The notes under the pieces: model-generated
Database searches by the model: none
What the model saw: the letters and a program-made list of their open reading frames with translations, nothing else
What the model was told of the DNA's origin: nothing
Part shown: one piece after another, positions 7,032 to 18,047 of the stretch
Layout of the letters: every line of letters starts with the position of its first letter
How positions within the stretch are numbered: position 1 is the first letter of the stretch
Position numbers and translations under genes: made by a program
Origin: Rhodospirillales bacterium
Lineage (GTDB): Bacteria; Pseudomonadota; Alphaproteobacteria; UBA828
DNA length: 38,860 nucleotides
Direction: 5' to 3'
Assembly (NCBI GenBank): GCA_028820995.1
Contig: JAPPHR010000044.1
Coordinates: forward strand, 10,275 to 49,134

Positions 7032-7655
7032 TCAGAGGGCCGGGCCGTGCTCGCCGATCAGGCGCTCGGCCTCGGCCAGGTCGTCCGCGCGGTTGGCGTT
7101 GAAGAAGGGGTCTACGGGCGCGCAGGGGAAGGCCACCTCCACGAGCCGGTGGCTTGCAGTCCAGCGGTCGATCTTGCGCTCGCCCTGCTCGACCAGGGCT
7201 TCCCGCAGGTCGGCGCGAAGCTCCAGCGGCCAGAGCCCGAACACGGGATGCGCCCGGCCGTCCGAGGCGGCGCAGGCGAGATCGGCGCCCGCGAGGTCGC
7301 GGGCCTCCACCATGGTCTCGACCAGGTCGCGCGGCAGGAACGGCGCGTCGGTGGCGAAGCTCGCCACCAGCGGGCAGTGGGGCGCGTTCTCCGCCGCCCA
7401 GTCGAGCGCGGTCAGGATGCCGGCGAGCGGCCCGGCGTTGCCCTCCACCACATCGGCCACCACCGTCAGGCCGTAAGACGCGAAGCGCTCAGGCTCGCCG
7501 TTGGCGTTCAGGATCAGCGGGCCGACCTGGGGTGCCACGCGCGCGATCACCCGCGTCAGCAGGGTCTCGCCGGCGAGCGGGCGCAGGCACTTGTCGCCGC
7601 CCCCCATGCGGCGCGCGAGGCCGCCTGCAAGCAGCACGCCTGCGATCTCCGTCAT
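7032..7655 (-). CDS. mobA: Molybdenum cofactor guanylyltransferase MobA
   Basis: Attaches GMP from GTP to Mo-molybdopterin to form the bis-MGD precursor in the cytoplasm. The 207-residue protein begins [20 protein letters not shown] and continues into DKCLRPL, the nucleotidyltransferase signature LAGGxxxRMGxxDK. The conserved ATDAPFLP segment is near residue 95. The start at 7655 has AAGGTGG upstream; longer in-frame starts (to 7715) lack support. The stop is 26 bp from the end of the convergent acyl-CoA dehydrogenase. A molybdenum hydroxylase subunit lies at the far end of the window, but that family normally uses the cytosine form of the cofactor (MocA), so MobA need not serve it. Confidence 0.92.
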
Positions 7656-7736
7656 GTGTGCCACCTTACACATCTTTCGCAGGCGTGTGCTTTCGATGGC
7701 GCTTGCGAAAGCCACGAGCGTGGTGAAATCTCCGGG

Positions 7737-8957
7737 CTAACTGTCCGGGCTGCTTCCACCGCCTTCGGCCCAGCGCATCGCAGCCAGCGTGGCTGCGCCT
7801 GAGACGGCGAAGGCGCCGACCAGGGCGTACAGGGTCCCGTCGAACTGTTGGCCCACCAGGGCCCCCAACGGCACCGAGACGAAGGTGGAAACCGACGCGA
7901 TGATCGCCGCTCCCACGCCGGCGATGTGGCCGAGAGGCTGCATGGCGAGAGCGTTCAGGTTCCCGAACAGCAGGCTGACGCTCACAAACACGGTGAGCAG
8001 ATAAGCCATGAAGAACCAGAACGGCGGAAGCCCGTCGTAGGCGAAGACGGCGGCCGATGCGATCAGCGAAATCACCGCGACGAAGGCGGCCGATGCTTTC
8101 GAGAGCCGGCGCATCCCGTACTTCATCACAAGGCGGCTGTTCACGAGGGACCCGGCCCCGAACGAAAGCGCGAGCACCCCGAAATAGAGCGGGAAGAGCG
8201 CGCCGGTGCCGTAGGCATCCTGGAAGATCTGCTGGGCCGAGCCGAGGTAGGCGACGAAGGGCGCGAAGACGAACCCCGTGGCGAGAGTGTATCCGAGCGC
8301 AGGCCGAATCCTCAGTATCTCGCCCACGGCCTGGCCGATGGCGCGCGGCGAGAAGGGCCGCCGCCGGGCGACGGGCAGGGTCTCCGGCTGGCGCAGCGCA
8401 AACCACGCGAGAACGATCACGGCGATCACGAGGAAGGTGATGAATATCGCGTGCCAGCCTCCCAGGATGAGGAGGCCCTGTCCCAGCGCCGGGGCGATCG
8501 TGGGGACCAGGATGAACACGGCCATGGCGAACGACATGAGCCGGGCCATCAGGCGGCCCTCGTACTGATCGCGCACCAGCGCGATGGAGACGATGCGCGG
8601 TCCCGCCACGCCGACGCCCTGCAGGACACGGCCCGCGATCATGATCTCGAACGTGGGCGCGAAAATGCACACGAAGGATCCCGCCATGAACAGGACCAGG
8701 CCGGCATGGATGGCGGGCTTGCGGCCGATGCTGTCGGAGAGGGGGCCGAACAGCAGCTGGCCGAACCCGAGCCCGATGAACAGCGACATGATGACGAGCT
8801 GGGCGTCGTTGGGGTGCGCCGTGCCGAGGTCGCGGCCGATCGCGGGCAGCGCCGGAAGCATCGCGTCGATCGCAAGCGCGACCAGCGACATCAGGAGGCC
8901 GATGAGGGCTACGAATTCGGCGGTGCCGAGGGCAGACTTGCTCTCCGCTTGGCTCAT
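7737..8957 (-). CDS. MFS transporter, Bcr/CflA drug-resistance family
   Basis: A 406-residue, 12-segment major facilitator, probably a proton-driven exporter of small hydrophobic compounds. The first helix segment LIGLLMSLVALAIDAMLPAL matches the Bcr/CflA N-terminus with its buried Asp. The loop 2-3 motif GPLSDSIGRKP is near residue 70 and GRVLQGVGVAGPR, the family's helix 4 motif, near 105. The start at 8957 has AAGGGGG upstream; an in-frame extension to 8987 is less likely. It lies upstream of mobA (81-bp gap) on the same strand and divergent from ubiK. The substrate is unknown. Confidence 0.88.
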   Translation of the reverse strand: MSQAESKSALGTAEFVALIGLLMSLVALAIDAMLPALPAIGRDLGTAHPNDAQLVIMSLFIGLGFGQLLFGPLSDSIGRKPAIHAGLVLFMAGSFVCIFAPTFEIMIAGRVLQGVGVAGPRIVSIALVRDQYEGRLMARLMSFAMAVFILVPTIAPALGQGLLILGGWHAIFITFLVIAVIVLAWFALRQPETLPVARRRPFSPRAIGQAVGEILRIRPALGYTLATGFVFAPFVAYLGSAQQIFQDAYGTGALFPLYFGVLALSFGAGSLVNSRLVMKYGMRRLSKASAAFVAVISLIASAAVFAYDGLPPFWFFMAYLLTVFVSVSLLFGNLNALAMQPLGHIAGVGAAIIASVSTFVSVPLGALVGQQFDGTLYALVGAFAVSGAATLAAMRWAEGGGSSPDS

Positions 8958-9805: not shown

Positions 9806-10894
9806 ATGACGAAACCGGTCGGTGTCGGGTTCCTGGGTTCGCAGTTTGTGAGCGGGATCCACGCCCGCGCACTGGTGCGCAATCCCCACGCAAAGTTGAT
9901 CGGGGTGGCATCGCCCACGCCGGGCAATGCCGAGGCCTTCGCGAAGACCTACGGCCTCCCCCATCACCACACCGATCACCGCCCGCTGCTGGCGCACGAC
10001 GACATCGACATGGTGGTCATCGGCACGCCCAACGACACCCACTGCCCGCTGGTGCTGGACTGCGCCGCAGCCGGCAAGCACGTCGTGCTGGAGAAGCCGA
10101 TGTGCCTGAGCGTCGCCGAGGCCGACAGCATGATCGCGGCCTGCAAGGATGCCGGCGTGCTCTTCATGTATGCCGAGGAGGTGTGCTTCGCGCCCAAGTA
10201 CGTGCGCGTGAAGTCGCTGCTCGATGCCGGTGCTCTCGGCACGCCCACCCTCGTCAAGCAGTCGGAGAAGCACGACGGCCCGCACGCGCCCCACTTCTGG
10301 GACGTCGATCGCGCCGGCGGCGGCGTGCTGGCGGACATGGGCTGCCACGGCATCGCGTTCGCCCGCTGGATGATGGACCGCACGCCCATCGTCTCGGTCT
10401 ACGCCCAGCTCTCGACCCAGGTGCACGGCGACAAGACGAGGGGCGAGGACAACGCGCTCCTGATCCTGGAGTTCGAGGGCGGCTGCCTCTTCCTCAACGA
10501 GACGAGCTGGACCAAGCCCGGCGGCATGGACGACAGGTGTGAGGTGCACGGCTCCGCAGGCGTGGCCTACGCCGACCTGCTGCACGGCAACTCGATCGAG
10601 ACCTACAGCCAGGGCGGCTACGACTACGCGGTGGAGAAGGGGGGCGGCACCCAGGGCTGGAGCTTCACCATCTACGAGGAGGAGTGGAATTACGGCTTCT
10701 GGGCCGAGTTCGACCACTTCGTGGATTGCGTGCAGAACGGCACGGAACCGCTGGTGACGGGCGAGGATGCGCGCGCCGTGCAGGAGGTGCTGTTCGCGGC
10801 CTACGAATCGGCCCGCACCGGCGCCAAGGTCGCGCTGCCGTTCACGAGCGACGCGGCCAGGCCCTGGGACCTTTGGCAGGGCGGCGCGGGCTGA
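9806..10894 (+). CDS. Gfo/Idh/MocA family NAD(P)-dependent oxidoreductase
   Basis: A 362-residue sugar or inositol dehydrogenase-type enzyme. The N-terminal Rossmann domain opens MTKPVGVGFLGSQFVSGIHA, with GxxGSxxxxGxH in place of the usual GxGxxG. VVIGTPNDTHCPL is near 70 and the family signature LEKPMCLSVAEAD near 95 carries the catalytic Lys. The C-terminal alpha/beta domain has DMGCHGIAFARWMM near 180, the usual His position. The start at 9806 is preceded by GAGGCGG; an in-frame extension to 9734 is not supported. It is the first gene of a three-gene operon whose next gene begins 4 nt after its stop, and so probably oxidises an amino sugar or derivative. Confidence 0.88.
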   Translation: MTKPVGVGFLGSQFVSGIHARALVRNPHAKLIGVASPTPGNAEAFAKTYGLPHHHTDHRPLLAHDDIDMVVIGTPNDTHCPLVLDCAAAGKHVVLEKPMCLSVAEADSMIAACKDAGVLFMYAEEVCFAPKYVRVKSLLDAGALGTPTLVKQSEKHDGPHAPHFWDVDRAGGGVLADMGCHGIAFARWMMDRTPIVSVYAQLSTQVHGDKTRGEDNALLILEFEGGCLFLNETSWTKPGGMDDRCEVHGSAGVAYADLLHGNSIETYSQGGYDYAVEKGGGTQGWSFTIYEEEWNYGFWAEFDHFVDCVQNGTEPLVTGEDARAVQEVLFAAYESARTGAKVALPFTSDAARPWDLWQGGAG

Positions 10895-10898
10895 AGCA

Positions 10899-11627
10899 GT
10901 GCAGTTTTCCGTTCTACCGGACCCGGAGGCGCTGGATCGTGAGGCCGCCGCGCTCATCTGGGAGGCGGCGCAGGCCAAGCCCGACCTCCTGATCTGCCTC
11001 GCGAGCGGGGACACGCCGACCGGGACCTACGCGGTGCTGGCCACTGATCCGGGGCGGCTCGCGAGCGCGCGCTTCATTCAGCTCGACGAGTGGGCGGGCC
11101 TCGGCGCTGGCGACCCCGGAAGCTGCGCCGCCTACCTGGAGAGCACGGTGCGCGGCCCCCTCGCGGTGCCGGCCGAACGCTGGATCGGCATTCGGGGCGA
11201 CGCGCCCGATGCCACCGCCGAGTGCCGGCGGGTGGCGACGGCGTTGGCGGCGGCCGGGCCTATCGACCTCTGCATCCTCGGGCTCGGGCGGAACGGGCAT
11301 CTGGGTCTGAACGAGCCTGCCCAGAGCTTCGATCCCTCCTGCCATGTCGCGACGCTTGCCGAGCAGTCGCGCAGCCACCCCATGCTGGCCGGAATCGACG
11401 ACTCGGTCCGTGAAGGGCTGACACTCGGCCTCGGCGACATCCTGCGTTCGCGGCGTATCCTGCTGCTGGTCTCCGGCGCCGCCAAGCGGGAGCCGATGAC
11501 CGGGCTCGCTGAGAGGCGGATCGCGCCGCAGCTGCCGGCCTCCTTCCTGTGGCTGCATGGAGATGCCGTCTGTCTCTGCGACGAGGACGCGGCGGCGGGC
11601 ACGGGCCTTCACGGCGCAGGCGCATGA
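10899..11627 (+). CDS. AgaI/NagB-type amino-sugar-6-phosphate isomerase/deaminase
   Basis: A 242-residue member of the NagB/6-phosphogluconolactonase fold, most like E. coli AgaI (galactosamine-6-phosphate deaminase/isomerase). Shared blocks are ICLASGDTPTGTY near 30-42, RFIQLDEWAG near 57, LCILGLGRNGHLGLNEPA near 125-142, EGLTLGLGDIL near 175 and PASFLWLHG near 212. In NagB enzymes the Asp of LDEW and the His/Glu of the GRNGHLGLNEP block are catalytic. The start is GTG at 10899, 4 nt after the previous stop, with no ATG in this position. It ends in a 4-nt ATGA overlap with the ROK kinase. No nagA-like deacetylase is present. Confidence 0.85.
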   Translation: MQFSVLPDPEALDREAAALIWEAAQAKPDLLICLASGDTPTGTYAVLATDPGRLASARFIQLDEWAGLGAGDPGSCAAYLESTVRGPLAVPAERWIGIRGDAPDATAECRRVATALAAAGPIDLCILGLGRNGHLGLNEPAQSFDPSCHVATLAEQSRSHPMLAGIDDSVREGLTLGLGDILRSRRILLLVSGAAKREPMTGLAERRIAPQLPASFLWLHGDAVCLCDEDAAAGTGLHGAGA

Positions 11628-12590: not shown

Positions 12591-14240
12591 ATGGCCACGC
12601 CGTCGACACGAGAGAACGCCGAGAACGGTCGCCGCCAATCTGCGGCCGCGCCGGACGTGGACGCGGTCGTGGTGGGGGCGGGCTTCTCGGGCCTCTACAT
12701 GCTCCATCGGCTGCGCGACCTGGGGCTCTCGGTGCGCGTCTTCGAGAGGGGGAGCGGGGTCGGCGGCACCTGGTACTGGAACCGCTATCCCGGCGCCCGC
12801 TGCGATACCGACAGTGTCGAGTACTCGTACCAATTCTCCGACGCGCTGCAGCAGGAATGGCGCTGGACCGAGCGCTTCGCCACGCAGCCCGAGATCCTGC
12901 GCTACCTGGAGCACGTCGCGGACCGCTTCGACCTGCGCCGGGACATAGCGTTCGGGACGACCGTCACCGAAGCGGCCTTCGACGAAGCAGCGGGATGCTG
13001 GCACATCGCCACCGACGACGGCGCGCGGCTTTCCGCCACTTACTGCATCATGGCGACCGGGTGCCTCTCTGCCCCCAACCGCCCTGCATTCGACGGCTTG
13101 GATCGCTTCGCCGGCGATTGGTACCACACCGGCGCCTGGCCCCATGAGGGGGTCTCCTTTGCCGGCCAGCGGGTCGGCATCGTCGGCACGGGCTCTTCCG
13201 CCATCCAGTCGATCCCGCTGATCGCGGCCGAAGCCAGCCACCTGACCGTCTTCCAGCGCCAGGCGAACTACACGATCCCGGCCCGCAACGCACCGCTGGA
13301 CGCGGCTCGGTACGCCGGCATCAGGGCGCGGTACGGGGAACTCCGGCGGAACGCCAAGCAGACGCCGAATGGCTGCTGGTGGCCTGTGAACCCGGCTGCG
13401 GCCGACGAGATGAGCCCGTTGGAGCAACGGCGCGAGCTTGAGGCCCGGTGGGAGAAGGGCGGGCTCCGCATGTACAACGTCTTCAAGGACGTGCTGGTCA
13501 ACGACAAGGCCAACGACATCGCTGCGGCCTTCATCCGCGAGAAGATACGCGAGCTGGTACACGACCCCCAGGTGGCGGCGCAGCTCTCACCTCACTCCTT
13601 CATCGGCTGCAAGCGCATCTGCCTCGATACCGACTACTACGAGACCTTCAACCGGCCCAACGTGACGCTGGTCGATATCAGCGACGCGCCGATCGAGGAG
13701 ATCACGCAGAGCGGTCTTCGCACCGGTGGCACGGAGCACGCGCTGGACACGATCGTCTTCGCCATCGGCTTCGACGCCATGACCGGGCCGCTGCTCAGCA
13801 TCGACATCCGCGGCAGGGGCGGGAGGACGTTGAAGGCGAAGTGGGCCGACGGGCCGCGCAGCTACCTCGGCCTAGCGATGGAGGGCTTCCCCAACCTGTT
13901 CACGATCACGGGGCCCTCCAGCCCGTCGGTGCTGACCAACATGGTCCCTGCCATCGAGCAGCACGTCGAATGGATCGCCGCGTGCATCGACCACGCGCGT
14001 GCCTGCGGGCGTCCCTGCATCGAAGCGAGCCGGGCGGCGGAGGACGCATGGATTGCCCACCACGACGAGGTCGCGGCCGGCACGCTCTTCCCCGGCTGCA
14101 ACTCCTGGTACGTCGGTGCCAACGTGGCCGGCAAGCCGCGCAAGGTGACGCCCTACACCGGGGGCTTCCCGGCCTATATCGAGAAGTGCGAGGCGGTCGT
14201 CGCCAACGGCTACGAGGGGTTCACGCTGACTGCCGCGTGA
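12591..14240 (+). CDS. Type I Baeyer-Villiger monooxygenase (copy 1)
   Basis: A 549-residue FAD- and NADPH-dependent enzyme that inserts oxygen next to a ketone, or oxidises a heteroatom. The FAD motif GAGFSG is near residue 30, followed by the BVMO motif GGTWYWNRYPGARCD near 55-69. The diagnostic fingerprint FAGDWYHTGAWP is near 173-184 and the NADPH motif GTGSSA near 200. The C-terminal half resembles phenylacetone monooxygenase (GCKRICLDTDYYETFNRPN, then AIGFDAMTG and SWYVGANVAGKPR). The Arg in GCKR probably matches that enzyme's catalytic Arg, a match made from memory. The start at 12591 has GGGAG upstream. The substrate is unknown. It follows the ROK gene by 55 nt but probably has its own promoter. 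Confidence 0.93.
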   Translation: MATPSTRENAENGRRQSAAAPDVDAVVVGAGFSGLYMLHRLRDLGLSVRVFERGSGVGGTWYWNRYPGARCDTDSVEYSYQFSDALQQEWRWTERFATQPEILRYLEHVADRFDLRRDIAFGTTVTEAAFDEAAGCWHIATDDGARLSATYCIMATGCLSAPNRPAFDGLDRFAGDWYHTGAWPHEGVSFAGQRVGIVGTGSSAIQSIPLIAAEASHLTVFQRQANYTIPARNAPLDAARYAGIRARYGELRRNAKQTPNGCWWPVNPAAADEMSPLEQRRELEARWEKGGLRMYNVFKDVLVNDKANDIAAAFIREKIRELVHDPQVAAQLSPHSFIGCKRICLDTDYYETFNRPNVTLVDISDAPIEEITQSGLRTGGTEHALDTIVFAIGFDAMTGPLLSIDIRGRGGRTLKAKWADGPRSYLGLAMEGFPNLFTITGPSSPSVLTNMVPAIEQHVEWIAACIDHARACGRPCIEASRAAEDAWIAHHDEVAAGTLFPGCNSWYVGANVAGKPRKVTPYTGGFPAYIEKCEAVVANGYEGFTLTAA

Positions 14241-14363: not shown

Positions 14364-16010
14364 ATGGTCACGCCATCGACAGGTGAGAGTGCCGGGAAGC
14401 GCCGGCTATCCGCAGGCCGTCCGGATTTCGACGCGGTCGTCGTCGGTGCTGGCTTCGCCGGCCTCTACATGCTCCATCGGCTGCGCACGATGGGGCTCTC
14501 CGTGCGGGTCCTTGAGAAGGGCAGCGGGGTCGGCGGCACCTGGTACTGGAACCGCTATCCCGGCGCGCGCTGCGACGGCGACAGCGTCGAGTATTCCTAC
14601 CAGTTCTCTGACGAACTGCAGCAGGAGTGGCGCTGGACCGAGCGCAACGCCTCACAGCCGGAGATCCTTCGCTATCTGGAGCATGTGGCGGATCGCTTCG
14701 ACCTCCGCCGCGACATCAGCTTCGAGGCGACCGTCACCGAGGCCCGTTTCGACGAGGCGGCCGGATGCTGGCGGATTACGACCGGTGACGGCGCGCAGCT
14801 CTCCGCGACCTATTGCATCATGGCCACCGGGTGTCTCTCCGCCGTCAACAGACCGGCCTTCGACGGTCTCGAGCGCTTCCAGGGCGAGTGGTACCACACC
14901 GGCGCCTGGCCCCATGAGGAGGTCTCATTTGCCGACCAGCACGTCGGCATCATCGGAACCGGCTCCTCGGCCATTCAGTCGATCCCGGTGATCGCGGCGG
15001 AGGCGCGACACCTCACCGTCTTCCAACGCCAGCCGAACTACACCATCCCGGCCCGCAACGGGCCGCTCGACGAGGCGGAGTACGCCGCCTTCAGGGCCAG
15101 CTACGGGGAGCACCGGAGGCGGGCCAAGACGACGCCGACAGGCTCCATGTGGGCCGTGAACCCGGCGACCGCCGACGAGATGAGCCCGTCAGAGCGTCGG
15201 CGCGAGATGGAGGCTCGCTGGCAGAACGGCGGCCTCAGCTTCTACGGGGTCTTCGCCGACCTCCTGGTCAACGGCGAGGCGAACGACATCGCGACCGACT
15301 TCATCCGCAGCAAGATTCGCGCCGAGGTGCACGATCCCACGCTCGCGGCGCTGCTCTCGCCGCATTCGTACATGGGATGCAAGCGCATCTGCCTCGATAC
15401 CGACTACTACGCCACCTTCAACCGGCCCAACGTCACGCTGGTGGACATCAGCGGCGCGCCTATCGAGGAGATCACGCGCACCGGGCTCCGCACCGGCGGC
15501 AGGGAGTACGTGCTGGACACGATCGTCTTCGCCATCGGATTCGATGCGATGACCGGGCCGCTGCTCGGGATCGACATCCGCGGCGGGGATGGGCGGACGC
15601 TCCGGTCGAAGTGGGCCGAAGGCCCGCGCACCTATCTCGGTCTCGCAATCGAGGGCTTCCCCAACCTGTTCACCGTCACGGGCCCTACCAGCCCCTCGGT
15701 GCTCACCAGCATGGTCCCCACAATTGAGCAGCACGTCGGCTGGATCGCCGACTGCATCGCCAATGCCCGCGCCTGCGGGCGCCCGCGCATCGAGGCCACG
15801 CGCGAGGCGGAGGACCGCTGGATGGCCCACCATGAGGAGGTCGCGGCCGAGACGCTCTTCCCCTCCTGCAACTCCTGGTATGTCGGTGCCAACGTTCCCG
15901 GCAAGCCGCGCACGGTGACGCCCTACACCGGGGGCATGCCGGCCTATGTCGAGAAGTGCGAGGCGGTCGTCGCCAACGGCTACGAGGGATTCACGCTCAC
16001 TACCGCCTAA
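14364..16010 (+). CDS. Type I Baeyer-Villiger monooxygenase (copy 2)
   Basis: A 548-residue paralogue of the preceding gene with all motifs intact: GAGFAG near residue 29, GGTWYWNRYPGARCD near 54, the fingerprint FQGEWYHTGAWP near 172 and GTGSSA near 199. Both copies therefore look catalytically competent. Differences cluster at the N-terminus, around 145-165, and in the segment 235-300 (for example TPTGSMWAVNPA against TPNGCWWPVNPA), which in this family lines the active-site domain. This suggests substrate divergence rather than simple dosage. It may be transcribed from its own copy of the promoter as well as by read-through. The stop is TAA, whereas copy 1 ends in TGA. Confidence 0.93.
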   Translation: MVTPSTGESAGKRRLSAGRPDFDAVVVGAGFAGLYMLHRLRTMGLSVRVLEKGSGVGGTWYWNRYPGARCDGDSVEYSYQFSDELQQEWRWTERNASQPEILRYLEHVADRFDLRRDISFEATVTEARFDEAAGCWRITTGDGAQLSATYCIMATGCLSAVNRPAFDGLERFQGEWYHTGAWPHEEVSFADQHVGIIGTGSSAIQSIPVIAAEARHLTVFQRQPNYTIPARNGPLDEAEYAAFRASYGEHRRRAKTTPTGSMWAVNPATADEMSPSERRREMEARWQNGGLSFYGVFADLLVNGEANDIATDFIRSKIRAEVHDPTLAALLSPHSYMGCKRICLDTDYYATFNRPNVTLVDISGAPIEEITRTGLRTGGREYVLDTIVFAIGFDAMTGPLLGIDIRGGDGRTLRSKWAEGPRTYLGLAIEGFPNLFTVTGPTSPSVLTSMVPTIEQHVGWIADCIANARACGRPRIEATREAEDRWMAHHEEVAAETLFPSCNSWYVGANVPGKPRTVTPYTGGMPAYVEKCEAVVANGYEGFTLTTA

Positions 16011-16066: not shown

Positions 16067-16507
16067 CTACGCCTCCCCGTGCCGCCCCGGCGGCGGGTCG
16101 CAGGGCTCGGTGCCCATGTCGGCGGGGACCGAAATCTCGATCAGGTCGAAGGTGTCCGAGGTCGCCACCTCGTTGTGCGGCGTGCCGCCGGGGATGTAGA
16201 GCGAGTCCCCTTCCTCGATGCGAATCGTCTCATCCTCGAAGGCCAGGTCGATCCAGCCGCTCAGCATGTAGACGATCTGGCCCTCGCAGATGTGCGTGTG
16301 CCAGCCGGTGGGCCGCGTGAGCCCTTGCTTGGCCGAGGTGATCTGTGCGCGGATGCGCCCGTCGCTCGCCGCCGTGACGCCGAGATCGCGGTAGGTCATG
16401 AAGTCGCGCCGCCCCGGCACGAAGGTGGGATCGTCCTTCCTGACCAGGGTAAACGGGGGCTCCGGCGTGGCCGGGCTTGCAGCCGTCGCAGTCTGGGCCT
16501 TTGTCAT
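16067..16507 (-). CDS. Small cupin-domain protein
   Basis: A 146-residue single-domain cupin. Motif 1 is GWHTHICEGQIVYMLSGWID near 68-87 with the His-x-His...Glu metal ligands; motif 2 is GDSLYIPGGTPHN near 100-112 with the final His. This keeps the set of 3 His plus 1 Glu, so metal binding is likely. It could be a dioxygenase, isomerase or ligand-sensing protein; sequence alone does not decide. The start at 16507 has GGAGAGGAG upstream. It lies 91 bp downstream of the ammonia-lyase-like gene on the same strand and may share its transcript. Confidence 0.85.
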   Translation of the reverse strand: MTKAQTATAASPATPEPPFTLVRKDDPTFVPGRRDFMTYRDLGVTAASDGRIRAQITSAKQGLTRPTGWHTHICEGQIVYMLSGWIDLAFEDETIRIEEGDSLYIPGGTPHNEVATSDTFDLIEISVPADMGTEPCDPPPGRHGEA

Positions 16508-16598: not shown

Positions 16599-18047
16599 TC
16601 AGGCCGGGTAGATGTCGCGGCGCAGGGCGTCGGTGAGGGTGGCCACAACGGGGCCCAATGCCCGGCCCTCCGCCGAATCGGGCAAGGTATCCCTGGCCAC
16701 GGCCTCGAGATCGGCCAATGCTTGAGGCACGGGACGGTCCGTGACATCCAGAGCGCGCAGCGCGATCGGCACAAGGCTGGCGAGCGCCATGTCGAGGCAG
16801 CGGCCGGCGCGGTCCTGCTTGGACCATGCGAGGAACACGGGGCTCGCCACGTCGTTCTGGCCAAAGCCGCCGGACTCGCTGCCGGGCAGAAGGGTTGCCT
16901 GGGCGTAGAGGCGGGCTTCCTCCTCGTAGCCGGTCTGAGCCATCGGCATGCAGCCCAGGTAGGCGCGGGGGGCGTCGTCCGCGTTGAGCGCGTTCAGCTG
17001 ATGGGGCAGCAACGAGACGGCGCCGTCCAGCAGCTTGGCCCCGTGGCGTTCGGCAAGCACGCAGAGATTGGCCGACGCGGCGGTGAGCGCGTCCATGGCG
17101 AGCACCGCGTGGGGGTTGTGATAGCCGCCGCACGTGACGAAGCGGCCGAAGGGATGATCCTCGTCAGTATCCGCGACCCAGACCGGGTTGTCGGTCACGG
17201 CCTGGAGCGACTCTGCCGCGACCTCGGCCGCGAGCGATGCCGCGCGCCGGGCCTGGCCCAGCATGCGGGGCAGGATGCGGTAGCTGACGGGCGCCTGATA
17301 GGGGCGGCGCGCGCCGCCGTGACCGCTCCCGACCAGCGCGCGAAGGCGCTCCAGCGCCCAGCCGTCGTGCGGGTTGTTCCAGTAGTCGCCGAGCGCTGCG
17401 TCGAGATGGTCGAGCGGCGCGTTGAAGGCCTCGAAGGAGAGCGCAAAGACCCGCGCCGCCACGTCGAGCCGTCTCGCGGCGACGAGCGAGGCATCGGAGA
17501 CGAGGCCCGTGGCGGCTGGCGAACCGTTGACCAGGCACATCACGTCCTTCAGCGCGGGCTCGGCTGCTTCGGCGAGGCCCATGAAGAGATGGCTCAACGA
17601 CAGGATCTCGCCGGCGCCGCCCTGGCCCATCGCCGGGAGCGCGGGCATCTCGTCCGCGTCCAGCATGGCGGCGACGCGCTGTGCGATCTCCGGCGAGACG
17701 GCGGCGTGGCCTTCCACGAAGTTGGTGAGCCGCGCGAGCACGATGGCGCGGACGACGCGCTCGGGCAGCGGATCGCCCCAGGATGTCGCGATCCGCGCCG
17801 GCGACATGCCGGCCCAGCGCTCGCGCTGCTCGGGCGTCAGCGTCTTGCCGGCGAGCTGGCCGGGGCCGGTGGTCACGCCATAAATCGTGACGTCCGGGTC
17901 ATGCTCGATAATTCGCTCCAGGCGCTCCCGGCCGCGCGCCATGGCTGCAAGCGCCTGTGCGCCGAGTTCGACCCCTTCGCCCTCCCAGGCCACGCGCCGG
18001 GCAGCGTCGAGCGTGAGATCCGCTCGCGTTTCGACGAGTACCGTCAT
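16599..18047 (-). CDS. Aromatic amino acid lyase-fold protein lacking the MIO serine
   Basis: A 482-residue member of the histidine/phenylalanine ammonia-lyase family. Family blocks present are IYGVTTGPGQLAG at 55-67 (Tyr56, the family's catalytic Tyr), LVNGSPAATG at 172-181, AESLQAVTDNPVWVA near 278-292 and GYHNPHAVLAMD near 308. The Ala-Ser-Gly triad that cyclises to the MIO cofactor is replaced by Gly144-Ala145-Gly146 (PAMGQGGAGEILSLSH). In the block equivalent to HutH QDPYSLRCQPQ the sequence is QAPVSYRILPR, so the HutH Tyr280 position is Val254 while the Arg is kept. It cannot form MIO and probably does not deaminate a free amino acid in the usual way. An ergothionase-like elimination is one hypothesis. 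No clear ribosome-binding site precedes the ATG. Confidence 0.85.
   Translation of the reverse strand: MTVLVETRADLTLDAARRVAWEGEGVELGAQALAAMARGRERLERIIEHDPDVTIYGVTTGPGQLAGKTLTPEQRERWAGMSPARIATSWGDPLPERVVRAIVLARLTNFVEGHAAVSPEIAQRVAAMLDADEMPALPAMGQGGAGEILSLSHLFMGLAEAAEPALKDVMCLVNGSPAATGLVSDASLVAARRLDVAARVFALSFEAFNAPLDHLDAALGDYWNNPHDGWALERLRALVGSGHGGARRPYQAPVSYRILPRMLGQARRAASLAAEVAAESLQAVTDNPVWVADTDEDHPFGRFVTCGGYHNPHAVLAMDALTAASANLCVLAERHGAKLLDGAVSLLPHQLNALNADDAPRAYLGCMPMAQTGYEEEARLYAQATLLPGSESGGFGQNDVASPVFLAWSKQDRAGRCLDMALASLVPIALRALDVTDRPVPQALADLEAVARDTLPDSAEGRALGPVVATLTDALRRDIYPA

Follow-up and report, generated by a model that had tools for sequence, protein, structure and literature searches.

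The window, a stretch of 38,860 nucleotides on contig JAPPHR010000044.1 of a Rhodospirillales bacterium (assembly GCA_028820995.1), carries on its minus strand the gene of a protein with the aromatic-lyase fold that has lost the residues of the MIO cofactor. The features of interest are the following.

16599..18047, minus strand: gene of the MIO-less aromatic-lyase-fold protein (open frame, PF00221, AlphaFold2 model)
17607..17636, minus strand: former MIO site, residues 138-147, PAMGQGGAGE (translation, codon check, conserved in close relatives)
17880..17882, minus strand: Tyr56, at the position of the catalytic Tyr53 of histidine ammonia-lyase, HutH (in the alignment, 98% of the family and all ASG enzymes)
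17526..17528, minus strand: Asn174, at the position of the NGT/NGS asparagine (in the alignment, 98% of the family)
17286..17288, minus strand: Val254, at the position of HutH Tyr280 (alignment)
17277..17279, minus strand: Arg257, at the position of HutH Arg283, which binds the carboxylate (invariant in the family and its relatives)
16067..16507, minus strand: single-domain cupin of 146 aa (Cupin_2, PF07883), downstream of the lyase gene and on the same strand
12594-14240 and 14364-16010, plus strand: a tandem pair of flavin monooxygenases with 80% identity between them

Residues and fold of the window lyase

The reading frame is intact, from an ATG at 18047 to a stop codon at 16601-16599, and codes for 482 amino acids. 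The protein matches the Pfam family Lyase_aromatic (PF00221) with an E value of 1.4e-57, and in NCBIfam it has sub-threshold similarities only (to HutH, tyrosine 2,3-aminomutase and others), its 134 bits against the HutH model TIGR01225 being far below the cut-off of 539. The AlphaFold2 model (pLDDT 92.9, pTM 0.93) has the aromatic-lyase fold, and a fold search with it gave tyrosine aminomutase, tyrosine ammonia-lyase, ergothionase and HutH about equally; the latter two, both at TM 0.87, are not told apart by it. Tyrosine aminomutase and tyrosine ammonia-lyase are the best structural and profile matches, but they carry the MIO, the triad of which is absent in the window lyase.

In HutH, Tyr53 is the base that removes the beta proton, Arg283 anchors the carboxylate, and the MIO activates the alpha-amino group so that it can leave. 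Residues 141-149 of the window lyase read G-Q-G-G-A-G-E-I-L, and according to the alignment Gly144-Ala145-Gly146-Glu147 replaces the Ala-Ser-Gly-Asp of the MIO enzymes, in a loop that is one residue shorter than that of HutH. Translation and alignment thus bear out what an earlier, sequence-only reading had claimed for this gene, namely an intact frame, Gly-Ala-Gly in place of Ala-Ser-Gly (codon 145 is GCC, at 17615-17613), and Val254 at the Tyr280 position together with retained Tyr56, Asn174 and Arg257. The glutamate of the HutH motif Gln-Glu-Asp is also replaced, the window lyase having GQND, and the position of HutH His83 is an isoleucine, so that recognition of an imidazole would differ from that in HutH. 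A positive charge at position 338 was considered as a further mark of MIO loss, and was dropped because tyrosine aminomutase, an MIO enzyme, has an arginine there too.

The neighbours of the window copy (the cupin and the flavin monooxygenases) tell little about its function, since outside the window their synteny with the lyase is conserved in no more than three loci, the close relatives L006, L009 and L010. For the same reason we reject the cupin as the partner that the sequence-only reading had considered possible; it is probably a neighbour and not a general partner. Of the tandem flavin monooxygenases, one copy is seen in close relatives, syntenic with lyase and cupin. The one monooxygenase that was scanned has its best score, below the cut-off, to PtlE-type enzymes, and a role for these neighbours as trimethylamine monooxygenase (Tmm) was rejected, as the same-genus genomes G000-G007 hold no match over the Tmm cut-off. 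Neither a hut operon nor tmm, tdm or proVW is present among the neighbours of the window copy.

Conservation and phylogeny

The genome scan gave 20 loci related to the window lyase, 19 of them full-length and the last a fragment without the part that holds the MIO site. GGAGE is identical in all 19 (71-89% identity) and in a second, 79%-identical copy in the window's own genome, so that conservation in the clade, which the sequence-only reading had left to be checked, is now established. The equivalent of Val254 is valine in 56 of 56 family members and tyrosine in all 40 ASG-bearing sequences, and Tyr56, Asn174, Arg257 and Asp399 are retained in the family alignment. One of the 56 members is an exception at the triad: the divergent L136, from genome G106, reads A-S-G, yet it has QAPV instead of QDPY. 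As GGAGE is the same in close relatives and the valine is fixed across the family, the Gly-Ala-Gly site is, judged by these alignments, a trait of the clade and not the outcome of decay, chance or sequencing error.

A sharp gap sets the family apart in the sampled genomes, 385 of the window's class and 398 of its phylum: the MIO-less proteins are found at E values below 1e-100 and other lyases at no better than 6.7e-42, and every family member in the sample belongs to the window's class. When the triad columns were left out of the tree, all family members still grouped in a single clade (support 100/100) on a long stem, away from the ASG-bearing lyases and with L136 as its one, distant ASG member, and a FastTree tree with 56 members agrees that the clade is separate. 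No root was inferred for the lyase tree, which shows this separateness and not the direction of change. Two close homologues (L012, L024) lie on contigs labelled Chloroflexota and Deltaproteobacteria, which points to a binning error or to gene transfer; nearly all others are from Alphaproteobacteria.

Two other groups in the tree, the GSVGY clade and the GASDL pair, are MIO-less and aliphatic at the Tyr280 position as well; whether the triad and Tyr280 tend to be lost together was examined by independent pairs, and with one or two independent events only the result had no significance. The GSVGY-type paralogues of HutH (L085, L087, L088, L090, L094), in which Tyr280 has become leucine, differ from the window's family in that they form a clade of their own (100/100) and accompany the canonical HutH instead of replacing it. 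In several proteobacterial genomes their genes directly adjoin the canonical HutH genes.

With the canonical catalytic residues lost, the protein could also be a pseudoenzyme or a regulatory protein of the lyase fold, an option raised in the sequence-only reading. We find this very improbable in view of the intact frames, pairwise dN/dS values of 0.15-0.21, and the conserved Tyr56, Arg257 and Asp399, as well as the pathway operons and the expansion in G106 that are described below. The window lyase is very probably functional.

Genomic context of the sister copies

The second copy in the window's own genome lies on contig 53, at the place where hutH should be. There hutC, hutU and the lyase gene run in the same direction and are adjoined by hutG, hutI and hutF; HutU (945 bits), HutC (274), HutI (468) and HutF (556) score over their NCBIfam cut-offs. 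The cluster at L012 is built as on contig 53, and HutG is there also over its cut-off; hutC-hutU-lyase is found in L018 and L019 too, with the stop of hutU overlapping the start of the lyase gene. A canonical HutH was not found in the four genomes with hutC-hutU-lyase, all their PF00221 matches belonging to the MIO-less family; completeness is no higher than 67% for G000, but it reaches 98% for G384, from which L018 comes. Pro62 separates the window copy from these hut-linked copies.

Other sister copies are genetically linked to the use of trimethylamine. The gene order at L015 is tdm, proW, proV, lyase, tmm, with 1248.6 bits for the TMAO demethylase Tdm (cut-off 1100) and 835 bits for Tmm (cut-off 675), and proW and proV belonging to a betaine/choline ABC transporter. 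Part of this arrangement is seen at L020 (proV-lyase-tmm) and L014 (proW-proV-lyase), and G280 has a tdm gene at a distance of 6.5 kb from its lyase gene. The hut-linked and the trimethylamine-linked members interleave in one subclade, which is sister to the window's orthologue group. Tmm is over the cut-off in 8 of 17 genomes that carry the family against 20 of 385 sampled overall, and both would be expected together in about 0.9 genomes, but since the eight genomes come from only three genera this co-occurrence supports the interpretation and is not independent evidence. In the window's genus, Tdm is over the cut-off in G002, G005, G006 and G007, and a urocanase is found in none of G004-G007, which carry the window-type gene.

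Could the family simply be a histidine ammonia-lyase that works without the MIO and displaced HutH in the hut operon? It occupies the place of hutH in four genomes that lack the canonical enzyme, and HutH shares with the window lyase its fold and the equivalents of Tyr56, Asn174 and Arg257. HutH differs, however, in its ASG triad, its Tyr280 and its separate clade. The triad, Tyr280 and the Gln-Glu-Asp glutamate are all replaced, a free amine is a poor leaving group, and the close sister genes sit with a trimethylamine monooxygenase, a TMAO demethylase and a betaine transporter, all of which makes this explanation quite improbable.

Expansion in G106 and wider family

The largest set of relatives is seen in G106, a genome of 2.7 Mb that is listed as 100% complete. 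It has 24 members of the MIO-less family (E below 1e-100), many of them in tandem arrays (the loci include L106, L107, L108, L225-L228, L231, L232, L234 and L235), and seven genes of the urocanase family. Its S-methyl-thiourocanate hydratases score above the NCBIfam cut-off or close to it: one with 890.8 bits (cut-off 880) is followed by an array of five family members, and another has 900.7 bits. The organism looks specialised on histidine-derived betaines. On its contig C3 (L229) the ASG-bearing lyase L164 (about 7116-8519) adjoins a thiourocanate hydratase at 9933-11594, with 963 bits over a cut-off of 930, and could represent an atypical MIO-bearing lyase of ergothioneine or a thio-histidine. 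Two tandem genes similar to the DMSP lyase DddP (350 and 324 bits, cut-off 600) are found near a family member at L225, 4359-6908. In another genome, G265, six or more additional proteins of the lyase fold (e.g. L105, 14662-16543) are about 600 aa long and have a different triad, TLGEGD in the one that was read; a start that by eye resembles a signal peptide was seen in this group, and an exported protein of the lyase fold would be odd.

Ergothionase lacks the MIO according to PMC13405746, and the sequence-only reading had pointed to this enzyme, which makes thiourocanate and trimethylamine from ergothioneine. The ergothionase of Treponema denticola (PDB 6S7J/6S7Q) has the same fold, the same lack of MIO, a proposed elimination of trimethylamine and, within the stretches of 6S7J that were covered, a Tyr280 site (QDPLSFRC) that is aliphatic, like that of our family in kind, and the array in G106 behind an S-methyl-thiourocanate hydratase also fits. 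But the likeness does not extend to the sequence: the family profile gives 6S7J 73.5 bits, which is less than HutH (102) and tyrosine aminomutase (123), and the covered stretches of 6S7J read SCN where the MIO-less family keeps NGS. The close sister group is moreover linked to HutU as its hydratase, with 945 bits as such and 701 bits against the thiourocanate hydratase cut-off of 930, so the context points to urocanate and not thiourocanate, and hercynine fits better than ergothioneine. That the window lyase is an ergothionase is for these reasons unlikely.

In three genomes UbiD-family decarboxylases adjoin the lyase gene (L102, 7819-9084; L113, 6508-7872; L105, 5259-6638), which suggests decarboxylation of an arylacrylate product in the wider family. 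These neighbours, the many paralogues in G106 and the window-type genes in genomes without hutU would agree with a lyase for another betaine or group of betaines, the window copy then having a substrate different from that of the hut-linked copy. On the other hand, the window copy and its hut-linked paralogue on contig 53 are 79% identical and share their conserved motifs, and we regard a different substrate as rather unlikely.

Discussion

The explanation that we prefer, and consider somewhat probable, is that the window protein is an MIO-independent trimethylamine-lyase of the hercynine type (hercynine is N-alpha-trimethyl-L-histidine, or histidine betaine), which would act in the manner of ergothionase but belong to another clade. 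A betaine substrate that needs no MIO, as proposed in the sequence-only reading, gains support from the context of the sister group, in which tmm, tdm, a betaine ABC transporter and urocanase all occur. If these close relatives share one substrate, the products should be urocanate and trimethylamine, and the substrate that yields both is hercynine. The case for hercynine is firmest for the sister group, and we infer that the window copy shares this substrate; the argument is weaker here because G000-G007 are without a Tmm over the cut-off and G004-G007 without urocanase.

The loss of the MIO triad and of Tyr280, while the base and the carboxylate anchor are kept, fits an elimination of trimethylamine that is free of MIO. 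By analogy with HutH, the beta proton would go to Tyr56 while Arg257 anchors the carboxylate, and a 1,2-elimination would then remove trimethylamine, a tertiary amine, from the quaternary-ammonium amino-acid betaine, turning hercynine into urocanate and trimethylamine. Trimethylamine would leave as a neutral amine and should need no activation by the MIO, as is the case for ergothionase. The urocanate could enter the hut pathway where this is present, and the trimethylamine could be oxidised by Tmm and the resulting TMAO demethylated by Tdm where they are present, or it could be released.

Our literature search, the coverage of which was incomplete, found nothing relevant on a hercynine lyase. 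A deep-sea sponge has yielded 6-methylhercynine, a derivative of the presumed substrate (PMC8779493). A sponge habitat for the window organism itself is guessed from its relatives, one of the homologue records being named Spongia_Bin9.

Conclusions

MIO-independent lyases are a known kind of enzyme, and it is the hercynine reaction that is possibly new. We tentatively hypothesize that in the hut operons of sponge-type Alphaproteobacteria a trimethylamine-lyase for hercynine, independent of the MIO, has taken the place of HutH, and that the expansion of the family to 24 members in G106 is probably a set of lyases for different imidazole betaines. If this is true, the hercynine lyase would be a previously undescribed enzyme that opens the histidine pathway to betaines, and the ammonia-lyase fold would have abandoned its cofactor and turned into a trimethylamine-lyase a second time, in a separate lineage. 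Proteins that are named histidine ammonia-lyase by annotation based on their fold would then do something else, and a natural marine betaine could be converted to urocanate and trimethylamine, which would add a further bacterial source of trimethylamine.
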